IMG/VR virus record: IMGVR_UViG_3300020446_000025
Span: 1 to 39,377 of that record
DNA: 39,377 bases
DNA from: a virus
Strand: one strand, 5' to 3'
This document shows positions 16,649 to 39,377 of the stretch, one piece after another. The first letter of the stretch is position 1, and every line of letters starts with the position of its first letter. Both the position numbers and the translations under genes were made by a program. A model generated the notes under the pieces. It was given only the letters and a program-made list of their open reading frames with translations. It searched no databases and had not been told where the DNA came from.

Positions 16649-18859
16649 ATGCACAGCGACGAGATACAACAGATAGAGCAGGATGCAGAGGAGTTCGAGC
16701 TTCAGATAGCCGAGCGCCTGCATACGTTTGCCTCGCGTTTGAGCAGACTGGCATCCGAGCAGGTAGGTAAGCGCAGCCAAGTCGAACAGCGATGGCTGGA
16801 CGATCTGCGCCAGTACCACGGCGAGTACGCAGCTGATGAAGCTGCTGGGCTATCCCGATCTAAGGGATCTCAGGTGTTCGTCAATATCACGCGGAACAAG
16901 ACCAACGCAGCGGAAGCGCGCTTGCAGGATATGCTGTTCCCGACCGATGACCGCAACTTCGGCATTTACCCGACTCCTGTACCCGAGCTGGATAACTTGG
17001 CAGCAGAGCAGCCACAGACTCCCGAGGAGCATGGGCCGGTAGAGATTGCCCGAAGAATCCAGAATCAGGCCGAGCAAAGCGCCAAGATGATGCAGGATGT
17101 CATCGACGATCAACTGGTAGAGAGCCGATACCACATCAAGGCACGGGACGTTATCCACGATGCCTGCCAGCTGGGTACGGCGATCATCAAGGGTCCGGTG
17201 ATAATTGGTAGGACCAAGAAACGCTGGGATGTGCTGCCTGATGGTACGAGTGTGCTGCAAATCCTCGAGGCCCTCGAGCCTAGCGTCGAGCGTGTAGACC
17301 CGTGGGATTTCTATCCCGATATGTCTGCGAAGTCGGTCGCTGAGGCTGAGTTTGTATTCGAGCGCAGAAGGCTATCCAAGAAGCAGCTGCGCGAGATGGC
17401 GAAGCTCCCTGGGGTCCTAGCGTCACAACTGAAAGAGATCGTGCGATCTGGCTATAAGTCCTCGCACATTGCCAAAGACTTTACCGATGACATCCGCAAC
17501 ATTACTGGGATCAACACGGTAGGCGAGGGCAACAAGTACGAGATCTGGGAATATCACGGCCCGATCTCCAAATCTGAGCTGATGGACGCAATGGCGCTCA
17601 GCGATGATGAAGAATACGCAAGCATCGAGACAGATGAGCTGGATGACGAGATCGAGGCGACAGTCTTTTTCTCTGGGAACCATGTCATCAAAGTCTCTTT
17701 GAACCCGATGGATTCCGATGAGCGTCCCTTCGCAGTGTTCAACTGGGAGAAGGATGAGTCCTCGATATTCGGCTTTGGCGTTCCCTGCCTGATGAGGAAC
17801 CCTCAGAAGGTCATAAACGCCGCGTGGCGAATGATGATGGACAACGCAGGGCTATCGGTAGCAGATCAGCTAGTGGTCAATAAGGAGCTTCTGAGCCCCG
17901 CTGACGGCAGCTGGGAGATGACACCGAAAAAGGTCTGGTACTTGCGAGATAAGACCAGATCGGTCGCTGAGGCGTTTGCATCGTTCTCTACGCCTAGCCA
18001 TCAAGTCGAGCTAGGCAACATATTCAGCATGGCAAGGCAGCTGGCAGATGAGGAGACAAACCTGCCACTAATCGCCCAGGGCGAGATGGCCCCGCACGTT
18101 ACCAAGACAAGCTCTGGTATGGCGATGCTGATGAACAGCTCGAACATCGTGCTGCGGAAAGCGGTAAAGAATTGGGATGACGATATCACCCGACCGCTGA
18201 TTACCCGTTTCTATGACTGGAATATGCAGTTCTCTGACCGCCCTGAGATCAAGGGCGATTTCAGTGTCGAGGCGCGTGGATCTGGCGCTTTGCTGGTACG
18301 CGAGAAGCAGCAAGAGAACCTGATGATCTACTCGAACATCTCGAACAACAACCCCGAATACTACAAGCGGCGTGACTGGGCTGAGCTGGATCGAGAGATC
18401 GCCAAGTCCCTCGAGGTTCCATACGAGCAGATCACCAAGACTGATACAGAGATCGCTGAAGAAGAGGCGGCTATGGCTGAGCAGCAGGGAATGATGCCAA
18501 GCCTCGATATGCAGAAGCTCCAGCTCGAAGCTGATCTGGCAGCAGCGCGATTGCAGCTCGAGCAGCAGAAGCTGGATTTCGATATGCAGCTCCAGTCAGC
18601 GAGGCTTCAGCTTGATCGTGAAGAGATGCAGGTCGATGCACAGATCGACATGGAGAAGATGGCGCAAAACGAGCGCCTCAAGGTGTCTGACATTAGCGCC
18701 AAGTACAAATCTGGCGAAGCTAACCGCATGACCAACTACAAGATCGCTGAGGACCGCAACAAGACTGAGCGAGACAAGGCAGCTGCGACCACCAACGTGA
18801 AGCTCACAGAGCAGCAGCTGAAGGCACAAAACATTCGCAATAGGTTTGATACCTACTGA
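16649..18859 (+). CDS. Portal protein
   Basis: 736 residues, the size of podovirus portals. Starts with a helical region and the segment RWLDDLRQYHGEY. A central domain includes DPWDFYPDMSA, IWEYHGPISK and VSVDPxxxx-like IKVSLNPMDSDERPF, then FGFGVPCLMRNPQKVINAAWRMMMDN, typical of portal wing/clip parts. The C-terminal 130 residues are a long Gln/Leu-rich coiled coil (LQLEADLAAARLQLEQQKL), a barrel-like extension. It follows TerL by 10 bases. Confidence 0.88.
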   Translation: MHSDEIQQIEQDAEEFELQIAERLHTFASRLSRLASEQVGKRSQVEQRWLDDLRQYHGEYAADEAAGLSRSKGSQVFVNITRNKTNAAEARLQDMLFPTDDRNFGIYPTPVPELDNLAAEQPQTPEEHGPVEIARRIQNQAEQSAKMMQDVIDDQLVESRYHIKARDVIHDACQLGTAIIKGPVIIGRTKKRWDVLPDGTSVLQILEALEPSVERVDPWDFYPDMSAKSVAEAEFVFERRRLSKKQLREMAKLPGVLASQLKEIVRSGYKSSHIAKDFTDDIRNITGINTVGEGNKYEIWEYHGPISKSELMDAMALSDDEEYASIETDELDDEIEATVFFSGNHVIKVSLNPMDSDERPFAVFNWEKDESSIFGFGVPCLMRNPQKVINAAWRMMMDNAGLSVADQLVVNKELLSPADGSWEMTPKKVWYLRDKTRSVAEAFASFSTPSHQVELGNIFSMARQLADEETNLPLIAQGEMAPHVTKTSSGMAMLMNSSNIVLRKAVKNWDDDITRPLITRFYDWNMQFSDRPEIKGDFSVEARGSGALLVREKQQENLMIYSNISNNNPEYYKRRDWAELDREIAKSLEVPYEQITKTDTEIAEEEAAMAEQQGMMPSLDMQKLQLEADLAAARLQLEQQKLDFDMQLQSARLQLDREEMQVDAQIDMEKMAQNERLKVSDISAKYKSGEANRMTNYKIAEDRNKTERDKAAATTNVKLTEQQLKAQNIRNRFDTY

Positions 18860-20130: not shown

Positions 20131-21123
20131 ATGGCAACTACTACCTACTCAGGTCTGTCACAGCGTACTAACGCTTACGCAGCCAAAGAAATGCTGGCTC
20201 ACGCTGAGCCAATCATGTGTCTGTCGAAGTTCGGCATGACTAAGCCTATGCCCAAGAACAAGGCGAACGTAATTAAGTTCCGCCGTCCTGTTCCTTTGGC
20301 AGTCGCAACCACTCCTCTGACAGAGGGCTCTGCACCTACTTCGCAGGCCATCTCGTATGAGGACGTAACTGTCACGCTGAGCCAGTTCGGAAACGTAGTC
20401 GAGATCACTGACGTTGTTAATGATCTTGCCGAAGATCCGGTACTGAAAGACGCAGCAATGCTTTGCGGTGAGCAAGCTGGCGAAACCATCGAGACCCTCA
20501 TGTGGGGTGTTCTCCAGGGTGGAACCAACGTGTTCTATGCAAACGGCTCAGCGCGTAACGCTGTAAACACTGCTATCACTCTGGACAAGCAGCGAGCTAT
20601 CACTCGCCAGCTCAAGTCAGAGCGAGGCAAGAAGATCACTTCAATGATCTCCTCTTCCGTTAAGTATGGCACTGAGGCTGTCGCTCCTGCGTACATCGCC
20701 TTTGCTCACACTGACCTCGAGGCTGACATTCGTGATCTGGCCGGCTTCACGCCGACTGAGAAGTACGGATCTATGAAGGCTCTGCCTTATGAGATCGGTA
20801 AGGTCGAAGATGTACGTTACATCCTGACGCCTGTTCTCAGCTCGATTGCTGATGCTGGTGGTGCAGCTGGTGGCAACTTTGTTTCTACCACTGGTACATC
20901 TGCGGATGTTTACCCTGTTGTTTACTGCGCCAAAGACGCATACGGCCACGTTGCACTGAAAGGTGCTGAGGCTGTTACTCCGACGATCATCAACCCTGGC
21001 CAGCTCGATAAGTCTGATCCCCTTGGTCAGAAGGGCATGGTGGGATGGAAAACTTATCACAAGTCTTTCATCGCTAATCAGGCGTGGATGGCTCGCTTAG
21101 AGTGCGGTGCATCCGTTCTGTAA
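20131..21123 (+). CDS. Major capsid protein, N4-gp56-like
   Basis: 330 residues with a strong AAAGGAG ribosome site. It shows the N4-gp56-type HK97-fold order: TNAYAAKEMLAHAEPIMCLSKFG, then KANVIKFRRPVPL, then the E-loop-like TPLTEGSAPTSQAIS, SQFGNVVEITDVVNDLAEDPVL and a C-terminal KTYHKSFIANQAWMARLECGAS. It forms the capsid shell. A short palindrome (21122-21134) and a strong terminator (21145-21172) follow the stop, which should raise capsid mRNA over the downstream genes. Confidence 0.93.
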   Translation: MATTTYSGLSQRTNAYAAKEMLAHAEPIMCLSKFGMTKPMPKNKANVIKFRRPVPLAVATTPLTEGSAPTSQAISYEDVTVTLSQFGNVVEITDVVNDLAEDPVLKDAAMLCGEQAGETIETLMWGVLQGGTNVFYANGSARNAVNTAITLDKQRAITRQLKSERGKKITSMISSSVKYGTEAVAPAYIAFAHTDLEADIRDLAGFTPTEKYGSMKALPYEIGKVEDVRYILTPVLSSIADAGGAAGGNFVSTTGTSADVYPVVYCAKDAYGHVALKGAEAVTPTIINPGQLDKSDPLGQKGMVGWKTYHKSFIANQAWMARLECGASVL

Positions 21124-26843: not shown

Positions 26844-27741
26844 CTGGTCGCAGGTACAAACTGTTACCCATAACGGCGCAGCTGTCGAAAAGGTCGATAT
26901 CGTTCATAGCCCATTAGTGCGGACGTTCACTGTAACGGTAGCAGCCTCGTCAGGCGCTAATCAGGGGTGGGGGTCCGGCAACATCTATCTCCTCGATGAT
27001 GACTGGTATCCGTCCTCCGCGGCTGGCTCATACCGATCTGGTTATGTCGATGCGGAGCCATCAACAGATCCCAATGCTGGGTTTGGCGACTCAAACATTG
27101 ACCTCGAGCTGCTGAAGGGTTGCACATACGTTTTCGATCAGTCAGACAGCTCTAACTCTGGTCATCCATTGGGCTTTGTCAGCAGTGGGGCTGGAGGCAG
27201 CGGAGCCACGGTTGTTCGCAGCGGGACCTTGAATGGTTGCACGATTACGAACCTTGGAACCCCAGGGCAGTCTGGGGCGGAAACGAGGATCGTAATACCG
27301 GCAAACTACTCAGGCTCGAGCATTTACTGGGCCTGCAACGCTCACGCGAATATGGGCGGATATGCGCCGGCAACTACAACTGCGCCGATTGAATTATGGC
27401 GGCGAGTGTGGATCTCAGATTCTCAGGTAACGCAAAACTATATACCCCCTGTGTACGGGTGGGTTTCTCAGGCAACTGGAAACGTGACAAGCAATGTAGC
27501 GACCTACTACTGGCACGTTAATTGTAACCCTCGACCGGCAAATGTTTGGCCTGGGGGCCAGCCATCAAGCGCAGACTGTCCTACTGGGTGGCAATACCAG
27601 TGCCAGTGGACGAACGTGGGTGGGTGTCCGTGGACCTGCAACTTGCAGTGCATCGAGTACACCACGGTCTGGGGCATTGTGACCGCAGGCTATTACCAAA
27701 CAACGACAACAGATACTTCGCGGTATTTGTACTTTTTCTAG
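26821..27741 (+). CDS. Cupredoxin-like, Trp/Cys-rich tail-tip protein
   Basis: 306 residues. The middle (about 92-180) reads TYVFDQSDSSNSGHPLGF ... SGSSIYWACNAHANMGG. It carries H115, C172, H175 and M178, the His/Cys/His/Met set of type-1 copper sites, with C-x2-H-x2-M spacing. I associate this 'DQSDSSNSGHPL ... CxxHxxMGG' domain with marine phage tail proteins; copper binding is not shown. The C-terminal about 100 residues are unusually rich in Trp (7) and Cys (6), for example CQWTNVGGCPWTCNLQC, and end in YLYFF. It lies between the fibre genes and the halogenase. It may be a fibre tip or a matrix-type protein. Confidence 0.6.
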   Translation: MPTTQTIDWSQVQTVTHNGAAVEKVDIVHSPLVRTFTVTVAASSGANQGWGSGNIYLLDDDWYPSSAAGSYRSGYVDAEPSTDPNAGFGDSNIDLELLKGCTYVFDQSDSSNSGHPLGFVSSGAGGSGATVVRSGTLNGCTITNLGTPGQSGAETRIVIPANYSGSSIYWACNAHANMGGYAPATTTAPIELWRRVWISDSQVTQNYIPPVYGWVSQATGNVTSNVATYYWHVNCNPRPANVWPGGQPSSADCPTGWQYQCQWTNVGGCPWTCNLQCIEYTTVWGIVTAGYYQTTTTDTSRYLYFF

Positions 27742-27750
27742 GAGCAGTGC

Positions 27751-28161
27751 ATGACGCCTCACGACCAAATGATTCATACGCCGGACGGCAGAACAGTCGT
27801 AGTGAAGGTGGGCGATGACCGGAATCTGCAAAGCAGTATCAAGCCGGAGTTCAGCTTCGATTACGACTCTCTTAACTTCAGCACCTCAACGAAAGAGAGA
27901 GTGCATGGCGGCGAGACTATTGCGCTTACTGATCTCGAGTGTGATGAGATTAAGGCGTATCTGGAGACGGTCGAAGAGGACACCGCTCTTACCGCAAAGA
28001 TACAGCGGCTCAACCAGTGTGAGAATTATCTGCGAACGACTGACTGGTATGTGATTCGTCAGCAGGAGATCGGGACTGCTATCCCAGAGGATGTCTCGAC
28101 AGAGCGCGCAGTGTGCCGTCAGTACATTAGCGATGTGAGGGATAGTGGCGTTATCCGCTAA
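27751..28161 (+). CDS. Tail-fibre-assembly-like protein
   Basis: 136 residues. The C-terminal half (LNQCENYLRTTDWYVIRQQEIG, VSTERAVCRQYISDVRDSG) matches the helical 'L..TDW..IR..E.G..IP..V...R..CR.YI' core of tail-assembly proteins. The N-terminal part is a beta-like acidic region. It overlaps the halogenase start by 17 bases. A dedicated fibre chaperone next to the halogenase is plausible. Confidence 0.65.
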   Translation: MTPHDQMIHTPDGRTVVVKVGDDRNLQSSIKPEFSFDYDSLNFSTSTKERVHGGETIALTDLECDEIKAYLETVEEDTALTAKIQRLNQCENYLRTTDWYVIRQQEIGTAIPEDVSTERAVCRQYISDVRDSGVIR

Positions 28162-29710
28162 GCCGGTAGTAGTTATTGTTGGCGGTGGTTCTTCTGGATG
28201 GTCAGCAGCAGCGTTACTTTCAGCATCACCATCTCTCGATATCAAGGTTATTGAGCCGGTACAGAATAACCCTATCGGCGTGGGGGAGAGCACTCTCCCA
28301 GTAATCAACACGTTCCACGAAGGCACAGAGCTGAAGGCGCTTAAAGGACGCAAATGGCTCGATCAGGTCGATGGGACGGCTAAGTTCTCAATACAGTTCG
28401 AGGACTTCTACAAGCTCGATGGGCGCAAGTGGGTGCATCCTTTCTTTGTTACCCCTGGCCCTGATGTCGAGGTAGTGGAAAAGCTGCAAGCCGGCAAAGC
28501 GGAGTCTGCTGCGAATCTTAGGCAGGCTAACTGGGTAGAGAAGAACCTCTTGCTCGGGAAGATGCAGGCGGAGAAGTTCTGGGAAGGGCCAGATATTTCT
28601 GCGCTGCCAACTGGCTTTCACTTCGATGCCGCCCTTTACGGGGCTTATCTTCGTGATGCGGTCCTGACAGAGAGGCCGCACGTTCAGCTGATAAAAGGCG
28701 CGGTCACAGATGTAACGCGGGACGAAAGCGACAATATTTTGACGCTTGGCCTCAATACTGGGGATCAAGTGTCTGGGGACTATTTCGTAGATTGCACCGG
28801 CTTTAAGTCGCTGCTATCGACTGGCGGCTCGATTGACTATACGGATCGCTTGTACTGCGACACCGCATTAGCAGCGCAGCTGCCTTATATCGACAAAGAA
28901 TTACAGCAGCGGAACACCACTCACTGTAAGGCGCTAAGCGCAGGCTGGGTTTGGAATGTGCCGCTGCAAAGCAGGATCGGGACTGGCTATGTGTACTCAT
29001 CGAGGCACATAAATCAGGCCGAAGCAGAGCAGGAGTTCCGCACTTACCTCGAGCAGAGGTTTGGTTATCCACCTTCCGAGGTTTCGCTTCGGCGGGTGGA
29101 TTTCACTCCAAGGAGAAAAGTAGAACCCTGGCGGCATAACGTCATCTCCATAGGGCTCAGCGGATTTTTCCTCGAGCCGCTAGAAAGCACTGGAATTGCG
29201 CTGACTCATCTGGCTATTCAGCGGCTCAGGCCGCTGTTAGAGCAGGCCATGCTGCCGCTTGATAAGCGCAGAGCAAAGTTCAACCAGTGCGTAAACGCTC
29301 GAGCAGACGAGGCGATGGAGTTCATCGACGCCCATTACGCGCTTAGCGAAAGGCAAGACTCTCAGTTCTGGCGTGATGCTAGGTCAGGGAGGCTCTCAGA
29401 GGCTCAGCAGGGCATTTTCTCTGGGTATGTGGCGAGCAACATAGAGTTTGACGATTCGACTGTCAGAGGCGCTGTAGGGACGTTCATGTTCTTTCCCGCG
29501 GGGAGCTGGGCATTAATGATGTACGGGTACGGCTTCCAGCCTAACTCGAGCGCAGCATTGACTTCATTTGTCGATGCTAGGCGCAACATTTGCGCCAGCT
29601 GCCCGCACAAGCGAACCATTCTGAATCAGGGTTATTGCGCTGAATGTAAGTGCGTTTTAGCCCTCAAAACCAAATTGAAATCAGCAACCTGCCCAATCGG
29701 GAAGTGGTAG
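28145..29710 (+). CDS. Flavin-dependent tryptophan halogenase with Cys-rich tail
   Basis: 521 residues from GTG 28145 (GAGG ribosome site, overlap with previous gene). FAD-binding GGGSSG is at 13-18. GVGEST lies at 45-50. The catalytic Lys is K80 in DGTAKFSIQF, aligned with PrnA K79. The halogenase signature is GWVWNVP (267-273; WxWxxP). EPLESTGI (344-351) carries E347 and S348, matching PrnA E346/S347. The residues needed to form and use HOCl are therefore present. The last 45 residues hold CASCPHKR, CAECKC and CPIGKW, a zinc-ribbon-like tail not typical of bacterial Trp halogenases. It needs reduced flavin from the host. The substrate is unknown; phage halogenases have been described in cyanophages. 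Confidence 0.9.
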   Translation: MALSAKPVVVIVGGGSSGWSAAALLSASPSLDIKVIEPVQNNPIGVGESTLPVINTFHEGTELKALKGRKWLDQVDGTAKFSIQFEDFYKLDGRKWVHPFFVTPGPDVEVVEKLQAGKAESAANLRQANWVEKNLLLGKMQAEKFWEGPDISALPTGFHFDAALYGAYLRDAVLTERPHVQLIKGAVTDVTRDESDNILTLGLNTGDQVSGDYFVDCTGFKSLLSTGGSIDYTDRLYCDTALAAQLPYIDKELQQRNTTHCKALSAGWVWNVPLQSRIGTGYVYSSRHINQAEAEQEFRTYLEQRFGYPPSEVSLRRVDFTPRRKVEPWRHNVISIGLSGFFLEPLESTGIALTHLAIQRLRPLLEQAMLPLDKRRAKFNQCVNARADEAMEFIDAHYALSERQDSQFWRDARSGRLSEAQQGIFSGYVASNIEFDDSTVRGAVGTFMFFPAGSWALMMYGYGFQPNSSAALTSFVDARRNICASCPHKRTILNQGYCAECKCVLALKTKLKSATCPIGKW

Positions 29711-31459: not shown

Positions 31460-31900
31460 ATGATAAGAGAAGCTAAACCTTCCGATGTGAAGGCAATAGT
31501 CGATTTAGCCGTAGAGTCAGTAAGCAGAAACCCACTTCCAGTAAACATTGATCGCGATGCGATGACACAGACCACTCGAGAAGCAATCTCGGGAGCGGCT
31601 CATTTTGTCTGGGTGTCGGAGATTGATGGAGAGGTGGTTGGCTGCGTTGGCGCTATGTCAGAAAAATCGTTTTGGTACGAAAGGCAGCAATGCAGCGTCC
31701 TTTTGTACTACGCAAGAGTCCCTCGAGATGGACTCAAACTAATTCGCAAACTAGCAGAGTGGATTCGGTCAAGACCGACGATCAAGGTGGCTGTGATGGA
31801 GTTAGAGCCAGAAGCAGATCCCCGTCTTGTGAAGTATCTCCAGCGTATCGGTTTTGCTCGTTTGTCCACTAACTGTTCATTCGTAAGGGGCCTCACATGA
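31460..31900 (+). CDS. GNAT-family acetyltransferase in virion cluster
   Basis: 146 residues. Starts MIREAKPSDVKAIVDLAVES, continues FVWVSEIDGEVVGCVGAMS, and has LIRKLAEWIRSRPTIKVAVMELEPEADPRLVKYLQRIGFARL, the usual GNAT strand-helix end. The acetyl-CoA loop is degenerate (VPRDGLKLI in place of R-G-x-G-x-A/G). GNAT-like proteins are often found next to internal virion proteins in podoviruses; the acceptor is unknown. It overlaps the next gene by 4 bases. Confidence 0.75.
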   Translation: MIREAKPSDVKAIVDLAVESVSRNPLPVNIDRDAMTQTTREAISGAAHFVWVSEIDGEVVGCVGAMSEKSFWYERQQCSVLLYYARVPRDGLKLIRKLAEWIRSRPTIKVAVMELEPEADPRLVKYLQRIGFARLSTNCSFVRGLT

Positions 31901-32742
31901 GTAAGGTTGTCAAGAAAGTAGGGAAGGCGATCAAGAAGGTCGTTAAAGGCGTTGTAAAAGGCGTCAAAAAGGTCTGGAAGAAGATCAAGCAATCCAAGAT
32001 TCTCAAGGTAATTGCGGCAGCGGCTCTGATCTACTTCGGTGGGGCAGCAATTATGGGAGGGCTCGGCGGCGCAGCCGGTGGCGGAGGATTCGCAGGGTTC
32101 CTCAAAGGAGCTGCGACAGGTATGGGCAACGCATGGTCCAGCCTTGGCGCAGCGGGTTCTTCTGTAATGAGCGGCAACTTTGGTGCAGCTGGATCAAACC
32201 TGATGGCTGGCATTAAAGGTACGACCATCAACGCTACTACTGGCGCAGTGACGGGTGTGGTTTCGGGTGGAGCCAACGCGGTAATCAGCCCAGGGACCCA
32301 AGCAGCAGCAGGAGCCGCACAAGGCGCAGCGCAGGGCGCTTCCGGCATGGTTCCGACTAATGCCACTGCCGGCGGCGTATCTGGTGCTGGAAACGTGCCG
32401 CTAGATGTAAGCGGAACCCTGACAAGTAACGCAGCAGGAAACGCCCCTGGGCTTCTTAACCAAGCAGGCAATGTGGTTGGAGATCAGGCGCTCAGTCAGG
32501 GCATTAGCTACGGCCAAGGCATTAAAGACGCAGCCAAGATCACTATCGGCGGTCAGGCGGTGCTGGGTGGCGTACAAGCGGTCGCAGCAAGTAAAGCGGC
32601 GGACGATGAGGCTGCGGCCTTAGAAGAGGCTCGCAGACAGTATGGCGAGAATGTCGGCGCGGCATTCGTAATGCCTGTGTTCAATCCGCTAACTGGCCGA
32701 TACGAAGTTCCTAATCAAGTTCAACCGGCCCCTGGAGGTTAA
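31897..32742 (+). CDS. Internal virion protein with cationic amphipathic N-terminus
   Basis: 281 residues. The first about 40 residues are a Lys-rich amphipathic helix (MSKVVKKVGKAIKKVVKGVVKGV...KKIKQSK). A hydrophobic stretch (ILKVIAAAALIYFGGAAIMG) and a Gly/Ala-rich middle follow. Such basic helices plus hydrophobic segments are membrane-active and typical of podovirus ejection proteins. The C-terminal part is helical (ADDEAAALEEARRQYGENV). Likely forms part of a channel for DNA ejection; not proven. Confidence 0.65.
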   Translation: MSKVVKKVGKAIKKVVKGVVKGVKKVWKKIKQSKILKVIAAAALIYFGGAAIMGGLGGAAGGGGFAGFLKGAATGMGNAWSSLGAAGSSVMSGNFGAAGSNLMAGIKGTTINATTGAVTGVVSGGANAVISPGTQAAAGAAQGAAQGASGMVPTNATAGGVSGAGNVPLDVSGTLTSNAAGNAPGLLNQAGNVVGDQALSQGISYGQGIKDAAKITIGGQAVLGGVQAVAASKAADDEAAALEEARRQYGENVGAAFVMPVFNPLTGRYEVPNQVQPAPGG

Positions 32743-34122: not shown

Positions 34123-34148
34123 GGGGGCCTTTTGGCCCCCTTTTTTTT
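34123..34148 (+). terminator. Strong intrinsic terminator after internal virion genes
   Basis: Perfect 7-bp stem GGGGGCC and GGCCCCC with a TTTT loop and eight T bases. It ends the virion cluster. It overlaps the leader of the giant gene at 34168, so that gene is either expressed by read-through or by a promoter in the 20 bases after it (none seen). Confidence 0.9.
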
Positions 34149-34167: not shown

Positions 34168-37100
34168 ATGGCTGAAAACACGCGCTCCAACTTCTTTAAC
34201 CCAGGGTTGTTTGATGATGAGTACATCGCTCCGTCTGTAACAAGGTCAAACTTTTTCTCCCCTGGCCTGTTTGATGAAGAGGAAGAGGAAGAGAAAGGTT
34301 TTGTTCTAAACACGCTCGCTGGCGCGGGTGAGCGTGGTGCAGAGCTTGTCAGTAATCTTGTTGAGTTCACCGGCAATCTGGCTGAGTCCGGCGAAAAATG
34401 GATAGCAGAAACAACTGGGATCAATCCCTACATCGAGTTTGGCGAAGATGGCGTTTCGTTTGAGTGGTATCGGGACCCGAACGAAACCAGCAATATGCTT
34501 CAGCCGTTGGCCGAAGGGATCGAAGAGCTTGGAGACTTCGGTTATGAGTCCCGCTTCACTTGGGAAAACTTTAAGGGTGAAGATGGCGAGCTGAGCTGGG
34601 ATGACTGGACCAACCCCAAAAAGCTGGCTGGGTTTGTTGTAGAGCAGGGCGTTCACTCGATACCCGATATGGTCGCAGCGGTTACCACGCTGGTCCCATA
34701 TGTCGCATCTCGAACACAAGAGATTGCCGAGCAGCGGGAGATCAACAAGGGCAAGAGCTATCGGTACGTCGATGGCGTCTACATCGAGGACCCTGATGGG
34801 CCTATCCGAGTAGACAACGATGGTGTGGTCACTGCCGGCGATTTAACCGAGGCGCTACCTACTGCGGTTTTTAATTCTGTGCTCGAGCGAATCGGTGCTC
34901 TGAGCATATTTAAGTCGGCTCCAGGGGCTACCCTAAAAAGCCGCATCTTTAAGGGCTCTACTCGAGAAGCTGGCACTGAGTTCTTACAGGAAGGTTCGGA
35001 ATACGCGGGTGAGGTTATTGGCACTCCTGTTCCGTTTGAAACTGACGTTGCGCTAGATCGCGGTATTGCTGGTGCTGTGGCAGGCGGCGGATTTGGTGGC
35101 TTGCTTGCAGGCGGTGACTCACTGCTTCGTGGCAATGAGCTTGCTGAAGCTGTCGATAAAGGCCGCAAAGAATCTCAAGCTCGCGGTGGCGATGGGCTCG
35201 ATCAAGCAGCTGCTGCGGCAGGCAATGCAGCCAGCACTCCCCTTAGCGCCACTGAGCGTCTGCGTCAACGCATGGGTATGGGCAGCACTGAGCCTGAGCA
35301 GCTCATGGACGTTGAGGATCTTGCCGGCACATCCGAAGCCAACCCCGTTCCAGTTTTCGGCGCGACTATAGAAACGCCTACTGGCACTACCCAAATCGAA
35401 ACAGATAACGCAGAAGCTACTGCGAGAGCTGCTCGCGCCCTAGCAGGCGATACTGGCACTGTTACCCTTACCCCAGAAGAAACAACCCTCGACCCCGAAT
35501 CCCTTAGCAGAGAGCAGCTCGAGGAGCTGTATCCTGCTGCCTACCAAGTAAGCCCCTACGCCCTGGGTCAGATAGATGACTTCAGAAGGCTGGGCATCCC
35601 CAACGAGCAAACCTACCAAGCCATTCTTGCGTCTAGGCGAGCTGACCGCACTGCCCCCGTACAGACCCCCGCACCGTCCTCCAGACAGCCTTTAGGCACT
35701 GACCCACGCTTGGGTCTGCGCGACAGCATATTGATGAATGAGCGCGATATACGCGCTGCTGAGGAAGCTGGGGACCAAGACGCTGTTACTGCCTTGAATG
35801 AAGATAACGTGCGATTGCGTAGCGTAGAGGCTCAACTGCGTAGAGCTAACGAGCTGGCACAGCAGGGCAATCAAGCAGCAGCTGACAGAATCATTGAGCG
35901 AGTCAGACCGATCTTGCAGGAAGAGGCAGGCCGCAGAGCTGCTTTCGATTTCACTCCCCCTCAGACAGACCCATTGCTGCTCGAGGACCAAGGCATCATC
36001 TATGGCGAGGCCCCAGAGGGCGCTCCTCAGTTGCCGTCAAGAGTCACACGCCGCAAGACCAGTGGCGAGCCATACCCCACAGCCAAGACAGCTCAGGCTG
36101 CAATGAATTTCCTGCGGAACAACGAGCCCGAATATAACTGGGCCGTGATCCGTGATGGGGACGGGTTTGCCGTCGAGGGCAATTTGCCGGAAGGCCCTGG
36201 GGCTCAAGTTATCAACGAGGTTACTCCTGATGCCGTAGTAGAGCGCGGTCAACAAAGCCAGCGGCAGCGGCTACAGGACCTTCAATTTGAAGAAGAGGTC
36301 GTACAGCCAGAGCAGGCAATCGAGCAAGAGCGGCAAGAAGATCAAGTTTCTATCGGGGACGTTATTGCTCAGTTTGAAGCGTCTGTAGATGAAGAGGCTC
36401 AGAAGCTAGACGAGCTGCGCGCCCAGAGAGATGAGATGACCGCGCGGGATCTCAAGGGCGTAAACGCGCCGATTCCCGCATCAACGATTAAAGATACTGA
36501 TGACCTGCTTCTGACCATTGTGAAGCTGGGCGGGATCAACATCGAGGATGCGAAGAGCAACGATTTCGATACTAAGCGAGATGCGCCCAAGCCTTACAGT
36601 GTCGGCAGGTACGCGCTATTCAAGCGTAACGGGAAAACCTTTGACGATCTCCGTGAGAGCTTACAGGAGCTGGGCTGGTATATACCGGAAGATCCGAATC
36701 AGCCCCCGCAGCTTGGTGCTAACGATGTTATGGAGGACATTCGTGACGCTATCAGGTCAACCAGCGAGGGCAGCTATGTTTATAAGGCAGACAAAGAAGG
36801 TGACATAGCAGGCTTAGATCGAGATATAGATCTACAGCAGGAGCTTATTGACGAGTTCGAGTACCTGCTAGAATCCTACAAAACACAAATCAACCCCGAA
36901 GAGGCTGGTCGCAATGACCTCAACATCTACGATGCGGCTCAATTCTTCGAGGGCGTAACAGAGGAGATCTACAGTGGTCCAGAACAGATACCCGCGCGAA
37001 GGGCTGAGGCAACTACAGGAGATGTACCAGCGGTTGTCGCCGGAGGAGATCGCGCAGCTGAGGGAGACCCCAGAGGGGGTCAGCGAAGAGATCAAGAAAT

Positions 37101-39377
37101 TGCAGAAGATCGCAGCACAGAGAGTGTTGCAGAGGCGAGGGATAACCTTCCCCCAGATGTAACAACAGACACGACCACCGAAGCGGAGCCACAAGGCTCC
37201 GTTTCTGCTTCTGGGGTCCCAGAATTTGAGCTTGGCACTTATACGGAAAGAGACATTGCTACGCTCGAGGATAGGGATCTCGAGAGCATGGAGGCTCGCG
37301 AGCAGATAGACCGTGAGCGCAATGAGTTTGCGCTGGATGCTGGTGAATCAACCCTAGCGGCTGCTACGGAAAGACTGGGGCAGACCCGCGGCGGGGATAT
37401 GTTTGGCTTCGATGAGGTCCAGCCCCGATCCAACAAGGATTACGGGTTCGAGAATAGACGCCGGCAGATTAACTCGAAGCTCAATCAAACAAGCGAAGCA
37501 GATTTAGATCTGTTCTTGGAAGATATCGGTGCTCAAAAGAAAGGCACGAAACTCGAGAAGATTGAGCGGCTTACAGAGGCTTTTGAGGCTCAGTACGTTT
37601 TCGAGAACACCGGACCCTATGAGAGTGTTGTTCAAATAGAGCAGGCAATCCAAGACGGCGTAATCGACCGAGAGGACGCTGCTCGCTTTGCCAGAGTCTT
37701 GGCCACCTCTCAAAACGCTATGCCTTCCTCAACCAGTGCTAAGAGCAACGCCGGAGACATAGCCACACTTGCCGCGCGTATGTCTGGTAGCGAGAGAGTT
37801 CCCTACCGCACTGAAGCGGAAGAAGCGGCTTTCGAGGAATCAAACGCACCTGAGAGGCAGCGCCTGCAAGAGCAGCAGGAACAGCAAGAAGCTGAGAGAC
37901 AGGAAACAAGCGAGTGGTTTGACAACAAAGAAAACAGGGATCGGTTTATTGATTTCTGGGAAAAGGCTACTCCATCCACAAGGCGTGATGTCCTCGAGCG
38001 AGTAGGCATGAACGCCCTGGGCGACACTGACAAGAAGATCGCTCGGCGCATAAACGCAGAGACCCCATCTAAGCTGCCCAATGCGGTAAATAACCTCCTT
38101 GTTCCGTGGGCTGCACAAAACTTTGATAGCTACTTAGAGGAGTACAAAAACAACAAGGACAACTGGGATGCGGTCGAGTGGGCTCAATATCTTGATCGCC
38201 CACAAGAGGAAATAGAGCGGCTCATCCAAGATCGAGAAATCAGGGATCTCGCGCTTCTCCAAGCTGAGCAGCCAAGCAATGCGCCAGAGCACCGAAATGC
38301 AGACACTGGGGTAAATGAAGCGCAGCTCGCGGAGCTGGTGGAAACTCTCGGCAGATACCGTACAGCAGAAGATACGCTTGCAGACCCAGAGCGCGTGACT
38401 CGAGTGCTGCAAGCGCCGGCAGAAAAAGATCGTGTTCGGCTAAAAGATAAGGTCAACATTCTCACGGGAAGCCAAGGGTTTCTGAGCCCAGAGCAAGCTG
38501 AAGCTCGAGTGCAAACGTGGCGGGACAATGCTCGAGGCCAGTTCCGAGTTCCAGAAAAGAGAGCAATAAACGACCGACTTGTTGTGCTTTCCCTCTTTGA
38601 CCTAACGGGATCATGGTCAGATCCGTGGTCAGAAGCCGGATATGAGGTTCATACCTTCGATATCCAAGACAACCCCTATGTAGGCGACATAACCAACTTC
38701 GGTACAGATTTCTTCCAGCAGCTGTTCAATATGTTCGACGGCAAAGAAATCCACGCGATTTTGGCTGCTTGCCCCTGCACTGATTTCGCAAGCAGCGGAT
38801 CAAGGCACTTCTCCGCGAAAGATAAAGACGGGCGCACTTACTCAAGCATACAGCTGGTGCAAGCCACCCTCGATGTTATCGAATACTTCAAGCCATCTGT
38901 CTGGGCGATAGAGAATCCAGTGGGTCGCATCGAGAAGATGAACGGCTTGCCGCCCTGGTCACTTTCTTTTGATCCGTACCACTTTGGCGAGGACTACACA
39001 AAGAAAACGCTTCTTTGGGGCCGCATGAACGCAGACCTGCCTATTGCGCCAACTGAGCCTACTGCCGGCTCCAAGATGCACAGTCAGTTCGGCGGCAGCT
39101 CGATAGAGACAAAGAACGCGAGAAGCGAAACCCCAGAAGGTTTTGCTTATGCCTTCTTCAACGCAAACAACGCTATCGACCACCCGATTATGACCATGCA
39201 GAACCGCTACGACATGGTTGATCCAGATGCGATTCGCGAAGCTGTTGAAGCGGGAATGTCGTTCTCCGACATAGACAACATTGTCATGGACCCTTACTAC
39301 ATTTCCCTCGACTATGAGGCTGCTGCGGCGGATCTGAGAGAGGCTGTTAAGGAGCTTCGAGAGGATCAGGAAGGGGG
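34168..39377 (+). CDS. Giant polyvalent-type protein with C5-methyltransferase-like domain, partial
   Basis: At least 1,736 codons from ATG 34168; no stop before the window edge. The N-terminus has two TRSNFF(N/S)PGLFD(D/E)E copies (residues 5-18, 25-38). A Gly-rich hydrophobic segment (GIAGAVAGGGFGGLLAGG) is near 295-315. Around 633-680 is a beta-rich YPTAKTAQAAM...GFAVEG unit, and about 780-875 an IVKLGGINIEDAKS/DVMEDIRDAI unit, like domains of polyvalent proteins. A SAP-like KGTKLEKIERL lies near 1131. Residues about 1472-1640 form a cytosine-methyltransferase-like domain: SLFDLTGSWSD (motif I; Leu replaces usual Gly), ACPCTDF (C1537, motif IV) and AIENPVG (motif VI). Polyvalent proteins often travel with the virion and act in the new host. 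Confidence 0.75.
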   Translation, partial: MAENTRSNFFNPGLFDDEYIAPSVTRSNFFSPGLFDEEEEEEKGFVLNTLAGAGERGAELVSNLVEFTGNLAESGEKWIAETTGINPYIEFGEDGVSFEWYRDPNETSNMLQPLAEGIEELGDFGYESRFTWENFKGEDGELSWDDWTNPKKLAGFVVEQGVHSIPDMVAAVTTLVPYVASRTQEIAEQREINKGKSYRYVDGVYIEDPDGPIRVDNDGVVTAGDLTEALPTAVFNSVLERIGALSIFKSAPGATLKSRIFKGSTREAGTEFLQEGSEYAGEVIGTPVPFETDVALDRGIAGAVAGGGFGGLLAGGDSLLRGNELAEAVDKGRKESQARGGDGLDQAAAAAGNAASTPLSATERLRQRMGMGSTEPEQLMDVEDLAGTSEANPVPVFGATIETPTGTTQIETDNAEATARAARALAGDTGTVTLTPEETTLDPESLSREQLEELYPAAYQVSPYALGQIDDFRRLGIPNEQTYQAILASRRADRTAPVQTPAPSSRQPLGTDPRLGLRDSILMNERDIRAAEEAGDQDAVTALNEDNVRLRSVEAQLRRANELAQQGNQAAADRIIERVRPILQEEAGRRAAFDFTPPQTDPLLLEDQGIIYGEAPEGAPQLPSRVTRRKTSGEPYPTAKTAQAAMNFLRNNEPEYNWAVIRDGDGFAVEGNLPEGPGAQVINEVTPDAVVERGQQSQRQRLQDLQFEEEVVQPEQAIEQERQEDQVSIGDVIAQFEASVDEEAQKLDELRAQRDEMTARDLKGVNAPIPASTIKDTDDLLLTIVKLGGINIEDAKSNDFDTKRDAPKPYSVGRYALFKRNGKTFDDLRESLQELGWYIPEDPNQPPQLGANDVMEDIRDAIRSTSEGSYVYKADKEGDIAGLDRDIDLQQELIDEFEYLLESYKTQINPEEAGRNDLNIYDAAQFFEGVTEEIYSGPEQIPARRAEATTGDVPAVVAGGDRAAEGDPRGGQRRDQEIAEDRSTESVAEARDNLPPDVTTDTTTEAEPQGSVSASGVPEFELGTYTERDIATLEDRDLESMEAREQIDRERNEFALDAGESTLAAATERLGQTRGGDMFGFDEVQPRSNKDYGFENRRRQINSKLNQTSEADLDLFLEDIGAQKKGTKLEKIERLTEAFEAQYVFENTGPYESVVQIEQAIQDGVIDREDAARFARVLATSQNAMPSSTSAKSNAGDIATLAARMSGSERVPYRTEAEEAAFEESNAPERQRLQEQQEQQEAERQETSEWFDNKENRDRFIDFWEKATPSTRRDVLERVGMNALGDTDKKIARRINAETPSKLPNAVNNLLVPWAAQNFDSYLEEYKNNKDNWDAVEWAQYLDRPQEEIERLIQDREIRDLALLQAEQPSNAPEHRNADTGVNEAQLAELVETLGRYRTAEDTLADPERVTRVLQAPAEKDRVRLKDKVNILTGSQGFLSPEQAEARVQTWRDNARGQFRVPEKRAINDRLVVLSLFDLTGSWSDPWSEAGYEVHTFDIQDNPYVGDITNFGTDFFQQLFNMFDGKEIHAILAACPCTDFASSGSRHFSAKDKDGRTYSSIQLVQATLDVIEYFKPSVWAIENPVGRIEKMNGLPPWSLSFDPYHFGEDYTKKTLLWGRMNADLPIAPTEPTAGSKMHSQFGGSSIETKNARSETPEGFAYAFFNANNAIDHPIMTMQNRYDMVDPDAIREAVEAGMSFSDIDNIVMDPYYISLDYEAAAADLREAVKELREDQEG

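Follow-up and report, generated by a model that had tools for sequence, protein, structure and literature searches.

Polyvalent proteins are giant multidomain phage proteins, and the DarB-like methylases have been proposed to modify the injected DNA (Iyer et al., 2017; PMC5512222). The main text of that paper describes mostly EcoKI/TaqI-like adenine methylases, and the word cytosine occurs in it in the reference list only. In phage P1, the first 30 residues of DarB mediate packaging (PMC9024508), and gp69 of the Burkholderia phage JC1, which with Bcep22 represents the DarB-like giants, was identified by mass spectrometry with 51 unique peptides in CsCl-purified virions (PMC9144972). In plasmids, orphan methyltransferases are prominent in the leading regions (PMC11541004), and the cytosine methylase of pKAZ3 was shown to block EcoRII (PMC11602122).

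Here, we analysed a complete IMG/VR virus record of 39,377 bases (the window), classed as linear; such records are often fragments. The giant encoded at its end resembles the polyvalent proteins in its size and its relatives, which carry LPD38, LPD23, LPD39, ART-PolyVal, ddrB-ParB and SNF2, but its module is a C5-cytosine methyltransferase. A literature search of open-licence PMC papers listed none that deals with cytosine methyltransferases of polyvalent or virion proteins, and we rate a C5-cytosine module in a polyvalent-type giant as new compared with the described adenine methylases. Databases already hold pieces of such proteins, where gp023 of Pseudomonas phage 8P (8P_023) is deposited as a structural protein and a BFVD match is named helicase. 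With a probability of roughly 0.6, we consider the giant to be a polyvalent protein of the DarB-like kind that is packaged into virions and in which an added C5 enzyme would methylate incoming DNA, probably shielding it from restriction.

The giant gene and its phage

The giant gene, its N-terminal and middle segments, and the neighbouring features were located as follows.

16649..18859, + strand: portal/head-tail connector (phrog_332, E 7e-55), on the same strand and upstream of the giant (late gene order)
20131..21123, + strand: major capsid protein (phrog_1357, E 2.4e-66), used for finding the nearest phages
34123..34148, + strand: strong intrinsic-terminator-like hairpin of 7 G-C pairs followed by T8, just 5' of the giant gene
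34168..39377, + strand: giant reading frame of 1736 codons without a stop up to the record end; ATG 34168 and TTG 34159 are possible starts
34297..35061, + strand: conserved N-terminal domain (aa 44-298), also present in giants from phages of Vibrio, Shewanella and Thalassomonas and in the related giants L047 and L059
35977..36753, + strand: middle segment (aa 604-862) with homology to giant L206 (E 8e-24)
37231..37782, + strand: further middle segment (aa 1022-1205) with homology to L206 (E 6e-7), containing a 'SAP-like' stretch at about 37489-37584

The single open frame of more than 1,700 codons described in the initial annotation was borne out, as it runs free of stops from TTG 34159 or ATG 34168 to the record end. 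Since the window is the whole of a record classed as linear, the gene is cut at that end, and the window encodes the N-terminal 1736 residues of a longer giant protein; the C-terminal part, which could be decisive for packaging, lies beyond the record. The hairpin with eight T before the start codon could result in low expression of the giant. A similar hairpin was present in 2 of 60 giants examined, and a terminator as part of a general giant-gene design was rejected on this count. The CpG odds of 0.93 and TpG odds of 1.10 in the window present no strong methylation scar, a point against the role proposed for the giant below. Amid the phage late genes, the window also encodes a tryptophan-halogenase-like protein (28145-29710; phrog_2928, E 1.5e-102). 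A glycine-rich basic protein at 31897-32742 weakly resembles tape-measure proteins (phrog_1272, E 1e-4) and is perhaps an ejection protein.

The whole giant, used as the query in a direct scan of viral contigs, retrieved no relative, whereas alignments of its N-terminal part and of its module did. The N-terminal domain (aa 44-298) matched, at about 33%, giants from phages of Vibrio, Shewanella and Thalassomonas, and two of the giants related through this domain, those of D478 and X14, carry LPD38 together with a methylase domain of another type. In a protein comparison, the other late genes of the window gave no match below E 0.04 to those of D478 and 8P. Relatives of the window's capsid protein are common among phages (87, of which 80 were kept). 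LPD38 scored over the cut-off in 13 of the 35 capsid-related records searched out of these 80, and the window's giant or its module was matched in 3 of the 35, many of which are fragments in which absence means little. One of these 3, the phage G007, with a capsid protein 87% identical, encodes the giant L206 (3,360 aa), which shares both middle segments with the window giant. The C5 module is absent from L206, in which no Pfam domain was found, and the module is therefore an optional accessory even among near relatives.

A C5-cytosine methyltransferase module inside giant proteins

The methyltransferase lies at the end of the sequenced part of the giant.

38476..39348, + strand: C5-cytosine methyltransferase module (aa 1437-1727), with N-terminal helices, catalytic core and C-terminal helical tail
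38566..39180, + strand: methyltransferase core (aa 1467-1671), matching phrog_757 (DNA methyltransferase) with E 6.3e-43
38773..38781, + strand: catalytic PCT loop with Cys1537; P, C and T invariant in 76/76 modules
38911..38925, + strand: ENPVG motif (aa 1582-1586); E, N and P invariant in 76/76 modules

The phrog_757 match over the core confirms the C5-methyltransferase-like domain that had been proposed from the DNA alone, and the positions given for C1537, which lies within the PCT loop, and for ENPVG were correct. Pfam detected a single domain in the window giant, DNA_methylase (PF00145), with E 0.04 and 13.8 bits against a cut-off of 22. The related modules of 8P (23.8 bits), L016 (23.7 bits) and L047 (25.6 bits) passed this cut-off, and those of L015 and L059 did not. 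NCBIfam gave no match to the module, PADLOC returned only weak type II methylase matches, and a profile search of PDB sequences only spurious coiled-coil matches. An alignment of 76 modules presented 32 invariant columns, including P100, C101, T102, E146, N147 and P148, and thereby both C5 catalytic motifs, PC (motif IV) and EN (motif VI). The AlphaFold model built on this alignment had a mean pLDDT of 93.3 and a pTM of 0.92; it replaced a poor first model from 6 sequences (pLDDT 65.5). Its best structural matches were DNMT3A/B and M.HhaI (Z about 14, 190-200 residues, rmsd 3.2-4). DNMT2 was not among the best 50 matches listed, which excludes nothing. The best viral match, in BFVD, was a giant phage protein that is 61% identical and named only as a helicase. 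By its predicted fold and its catalytic residues, the window frame holds a genuine C5-cytosine methyltransferase.

The canonical C5 enzymes M.HhaI, M.HaeIII and DNMT3 share the core fold (Z about 13-14) and the PC and EN motifs with the module, but by the ranges of the structural matches their matched span is about 71-121 residues longer. The YTK and RSxTP motifs are only 38-43 residues apart in the 76 members, a stretch that we take to be the motif VIII-IX spacing of the family. Given the shorter matched span and this short spacing, the target-recognition domain appears to be nearly missing, and the module is consistent with a stripped-down C5 enzyme, which may have a relaxed specificity. A leucine in motif I (SLFDLTGSW) had raised doubts about activity in the initial annotation. 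This site is variable in the family (L 32, Y 27, A 7, others 10; n=76), and as leucine is its commonest residue, it is no sign of decay. Pairwise dN/dS values of 0.04-0.22 between close relatives, from a test on 23 of the 76 modules in which distant pairs reached 0.52, near saturation, indicated purifying selection.

From the 410 relatives that the module retrieved in a scan of viral contigs, we analysed the best 80. Giant frames of 1,392-5,920 aa carried the module in 56 of these 80, which fall into 48 clusters when modules are grouped at 95% identity; the other 24 are short proteins, one with 382 aa and 23 with 186-199 aa. In the 53 giants whose N-terminus is intact, the module starts at residue 920-2297. 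Among the best 80 of the 410, 30 giants have an intact C-terminus, and 29 of these continue for a further 1,272-3,158 residues after the module. The exception was L080, whose frame is interrupted within the module, perhaps by a sequencing error or because it is a pseudogene. The module is an internal part of giants, and as 29 of 30 intact ones continue for at least 1,272 residues, the earlier description of the protein as ending in a methyltransferase merely reflects where the record stops.

The domains found beside the module were those of polyvalent proteins. A Pfam scan of 15 of the 56 giants found LPD38 in 13, ART-PolyVal in 6, SAP in 2 and ddrB-ParB in 1, and two giants matched a DarB-like antirestriction PHROG. 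When 8P and the window were added to the 56, an adenine-methyltransferase homologue was present in 25 of the 58 C5 giants, and 19 of these 25 contain NPP[FYW] at some point of their sequence. In 19 of the 58, a SNF2 helicase accompanied the adenine-methyltransferase homologue. After removal of near-copies, and leaving out 8P and the window, adenine methylase and SNF2 occurred together in 17 of the 48 clusters. Neither was detected in the 1736 residues of the window giant, and they may lie past the record end. Two relatives have the N-terminal domain of the window giant as well as the C5 module: L047, with ddrB-ParB and LPD38, and L059, in which a helicase-type ATPase, an adenine methylase and, weakly, a transglycosylase were matched. 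The polyvalent-type units that had been annotated in the window giant itself were not detectable in the part within the window, where Pfam gave the one enzyme domain and no LPD; its polyvalent character comes from the relatives. For the annotated SAP-like segment, Pfam returned no SAP hit at E values up to 1; with SAP present in two related giants, the segment may still be of this type.

Proposed virion packaging and protection of incoming DNA

The giant of phage 8P (gp023, QIW89234.1, 5145 aa) is annotated only as 'structural protein'. Like the window giant, it has an internal C5 module, 45% identical over 291 aa, and a duplicated N-terminal motif; it differs in its type of N-terminal domain and in carrying an adenine methylase and SNF2 in addition. 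It aligns with PEp14 gp27 up to 8P residue 899 and again from 1399, and in PEp14 gp27 the two stretches meet at 1212-1222 with no extra residues between them. Against JC1 gp69, the alignment stops at 901 and resumes at 1406, a stretch of 505 residues in 8P that faces a gap of 151 residues in JC1. The C5 module of 8P (aa 1041-1318) lies in the gap between the colinear blocks and is, as judged from the alignments, an insertion of about 500 residues into a giant colinear with JC1 gp69. P1 DarB, JC1 gp69 and PEp14 gp27 have no C5 motifs, unlike the window and 8P giants.

Of our findings, this colinearity with the virion protein JC1 gp69 argues most strongly that C5 giants may be virion proteins. 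The window giant had no direct match to P1 DarB or JC1 gp69, and our literature search revealed no study of phage 8P virion proteins. The initial annotation had suggested a packaged and injected protein that protects DNA. Homology favours this suggestion, through the match of the N-terminal domain to LPD38 giants, the capsid-related phages with LPD38 giants, and the link from 8P to JC1 gp69, and the reservation about activity drawn from motif I is not supported.

We propose that the giant would be produced from the late operon of a tailed phage, loaded into the head, probably via its N-terminal segment, and ejected together with the DNA. On entry, the C5 module would take S-adenosylmethionine from the host and methylate cytosines of the incoming genome; activity would start only then, because the cofactor would have to come from the host. 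The methylated DNA would be refractory to type II restriction, and perhaps to restriction of other types, ahead of phage gene expression.

Plasmid relatives of the module would fit this role in the entry phase. By tblastn, the module was found in 267 plasmid records, with at least 80% of its length in 130, mainly of Pseudomonas, Escherichia and Acinetobacter. The three plasmid versions that were opened (pAMBL2, P. siliginis and Acinetobacter) are annotated as DNA cytosine methyltransferases and are 53-60% identical to the window module; they keep both helical flanks but are unfused proteins of 337-381 aa. As pKAZ3 encodes no member of this enzyme family, no tested relative of the module is known. 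The stand-alone phage DNA methyltransferases of PHROG 757 agree with the module in the catalytic core and in the short spacing of motifs VIII and IX, but in the set analysed they are 186-199 aa long, have no helical flanks and form a separate clade. A tree with 83 rows set the 24 phage stand-alones apart (97/88) from a group of 53 giant-borne modules, within which the 6 plasmid-type modules were nested. Its bootstrap values were not yet stable and long branches occurred in several rows; the direction of transfer is not readable from this tree.

The enzyme could instead act in the producing cell, where the late giant would methylate phage DNA before or during packaging and yield virions with pre-methylated DNA. 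The location of the giant in a late operon agrees with this, as do the phages with stand-alone copies of the enzyme class among their non-structural genes, for example next to NinB/NinG. These same copies would already meet that need, and the fusion to packaged DarB-like giants would be left unexplained, which makes this explanation unlikely. We regard it as less likely still that an injected module methylates host DNA or RNA and changes host gene expression or defence. Polyvalent proteins do carry other enzymes, such as the ADP-ribosyltransferases of 6 of the 15 scanned giants, and the near absence of a target-recognition domain would suit such a target, but the closest relatives of the module are plasmid enzymes, and these, together with the frequent fusion with DarB-type adenine methylase and helicase, point to the protection of incoming DNA. 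That the module is a catalytically dead leftover with a structural or DNA-binding role, as the doubt over motif I and the weak PF00145 match might suggest, is very improbable given the invariant catalytic residues (76/76), the dN/dS of 0.04-0.22 in close pairs and a motif I that is normal for the family.

If protection of the entering DNA is the correct reading, virion-delivered antirestriction would extend from adenine to cytosine methylation. Phage 8P provides named material in which protection by an injected methylase against type II enzymes can be tested, and a C5-methyltransferase of relaxed specificity that nearly lacks a target-recognition domain would serve as a tool enzyme.

The N-terminal tandem motif

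Two near-identical copies of a 14-residue motif, TRSNFFNPGLFDDE and TRSNFFSPGLFDEE, were identified at the start of the giant.

34180..34221, + strand: tandem motif copy 1, TRSNFFNPGLFDDE (aa 5-18); 0/200 shuffles as good
34240..34281, + strand: tandem motif copy 2, TRSNFFSPGLFDEE (aa 25-38), from the self-repeat test

The N-terminal repeats reported earlier are therefore real by this test. A self-repeat at p 0.01 or less was found in 16 of 50 distinct N-termini (the window and other giants) and in 8 of 150 control frames (Fisher p 5e-6); the controls were 150 of 176 available frames from the same loci, with a threshold of at most 1/100 shuffles, about equal to p 0.01. Giants of this type often start with a short aromatic-acidic motif in two or three copies, and a tandem motif is also present in the 8P giant and in three giants of the window's capsid lineage, with a different motif in each. 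It was not found elsewhere in the six frames of the window and is thus not common to any co-packaged window protein.

The tandem motif is possibly a capsid-loading signal, an attractive hypothesis given the role of the first 30 residues of DarB; if real, such a signal would explain how these giants enter phage heads. The same repeat test detected no tandem motif in P1 DarB, JC1 gp69, PEp14 gp27 and F116 p59, and a universal loading signal was therefore rejected. A wider proposal, which we consider conceivable though doubtful, is that phages and plasmids share a mobile, nearly specificity-free C5 cassette, which in giants would coat the entering DNA as a general shield, with the tandem motif as a lock-and-key loading code. 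The adenine methylase and the helicase translocase often found alongside would then leave both 5-methylcytosine and N6-methyladenine on the entering DNA, and the motif differs between phages, as a lock-and-key code would. The N-terminus of P1 DdrA (27542-27907 of locus L209) contains a tandem repeat of about 20 residues, with 0/500 shuffles as good. The L047 and L075 giants instead have longer tandem units at their N-termini, for example ARxAGYxDxxI.
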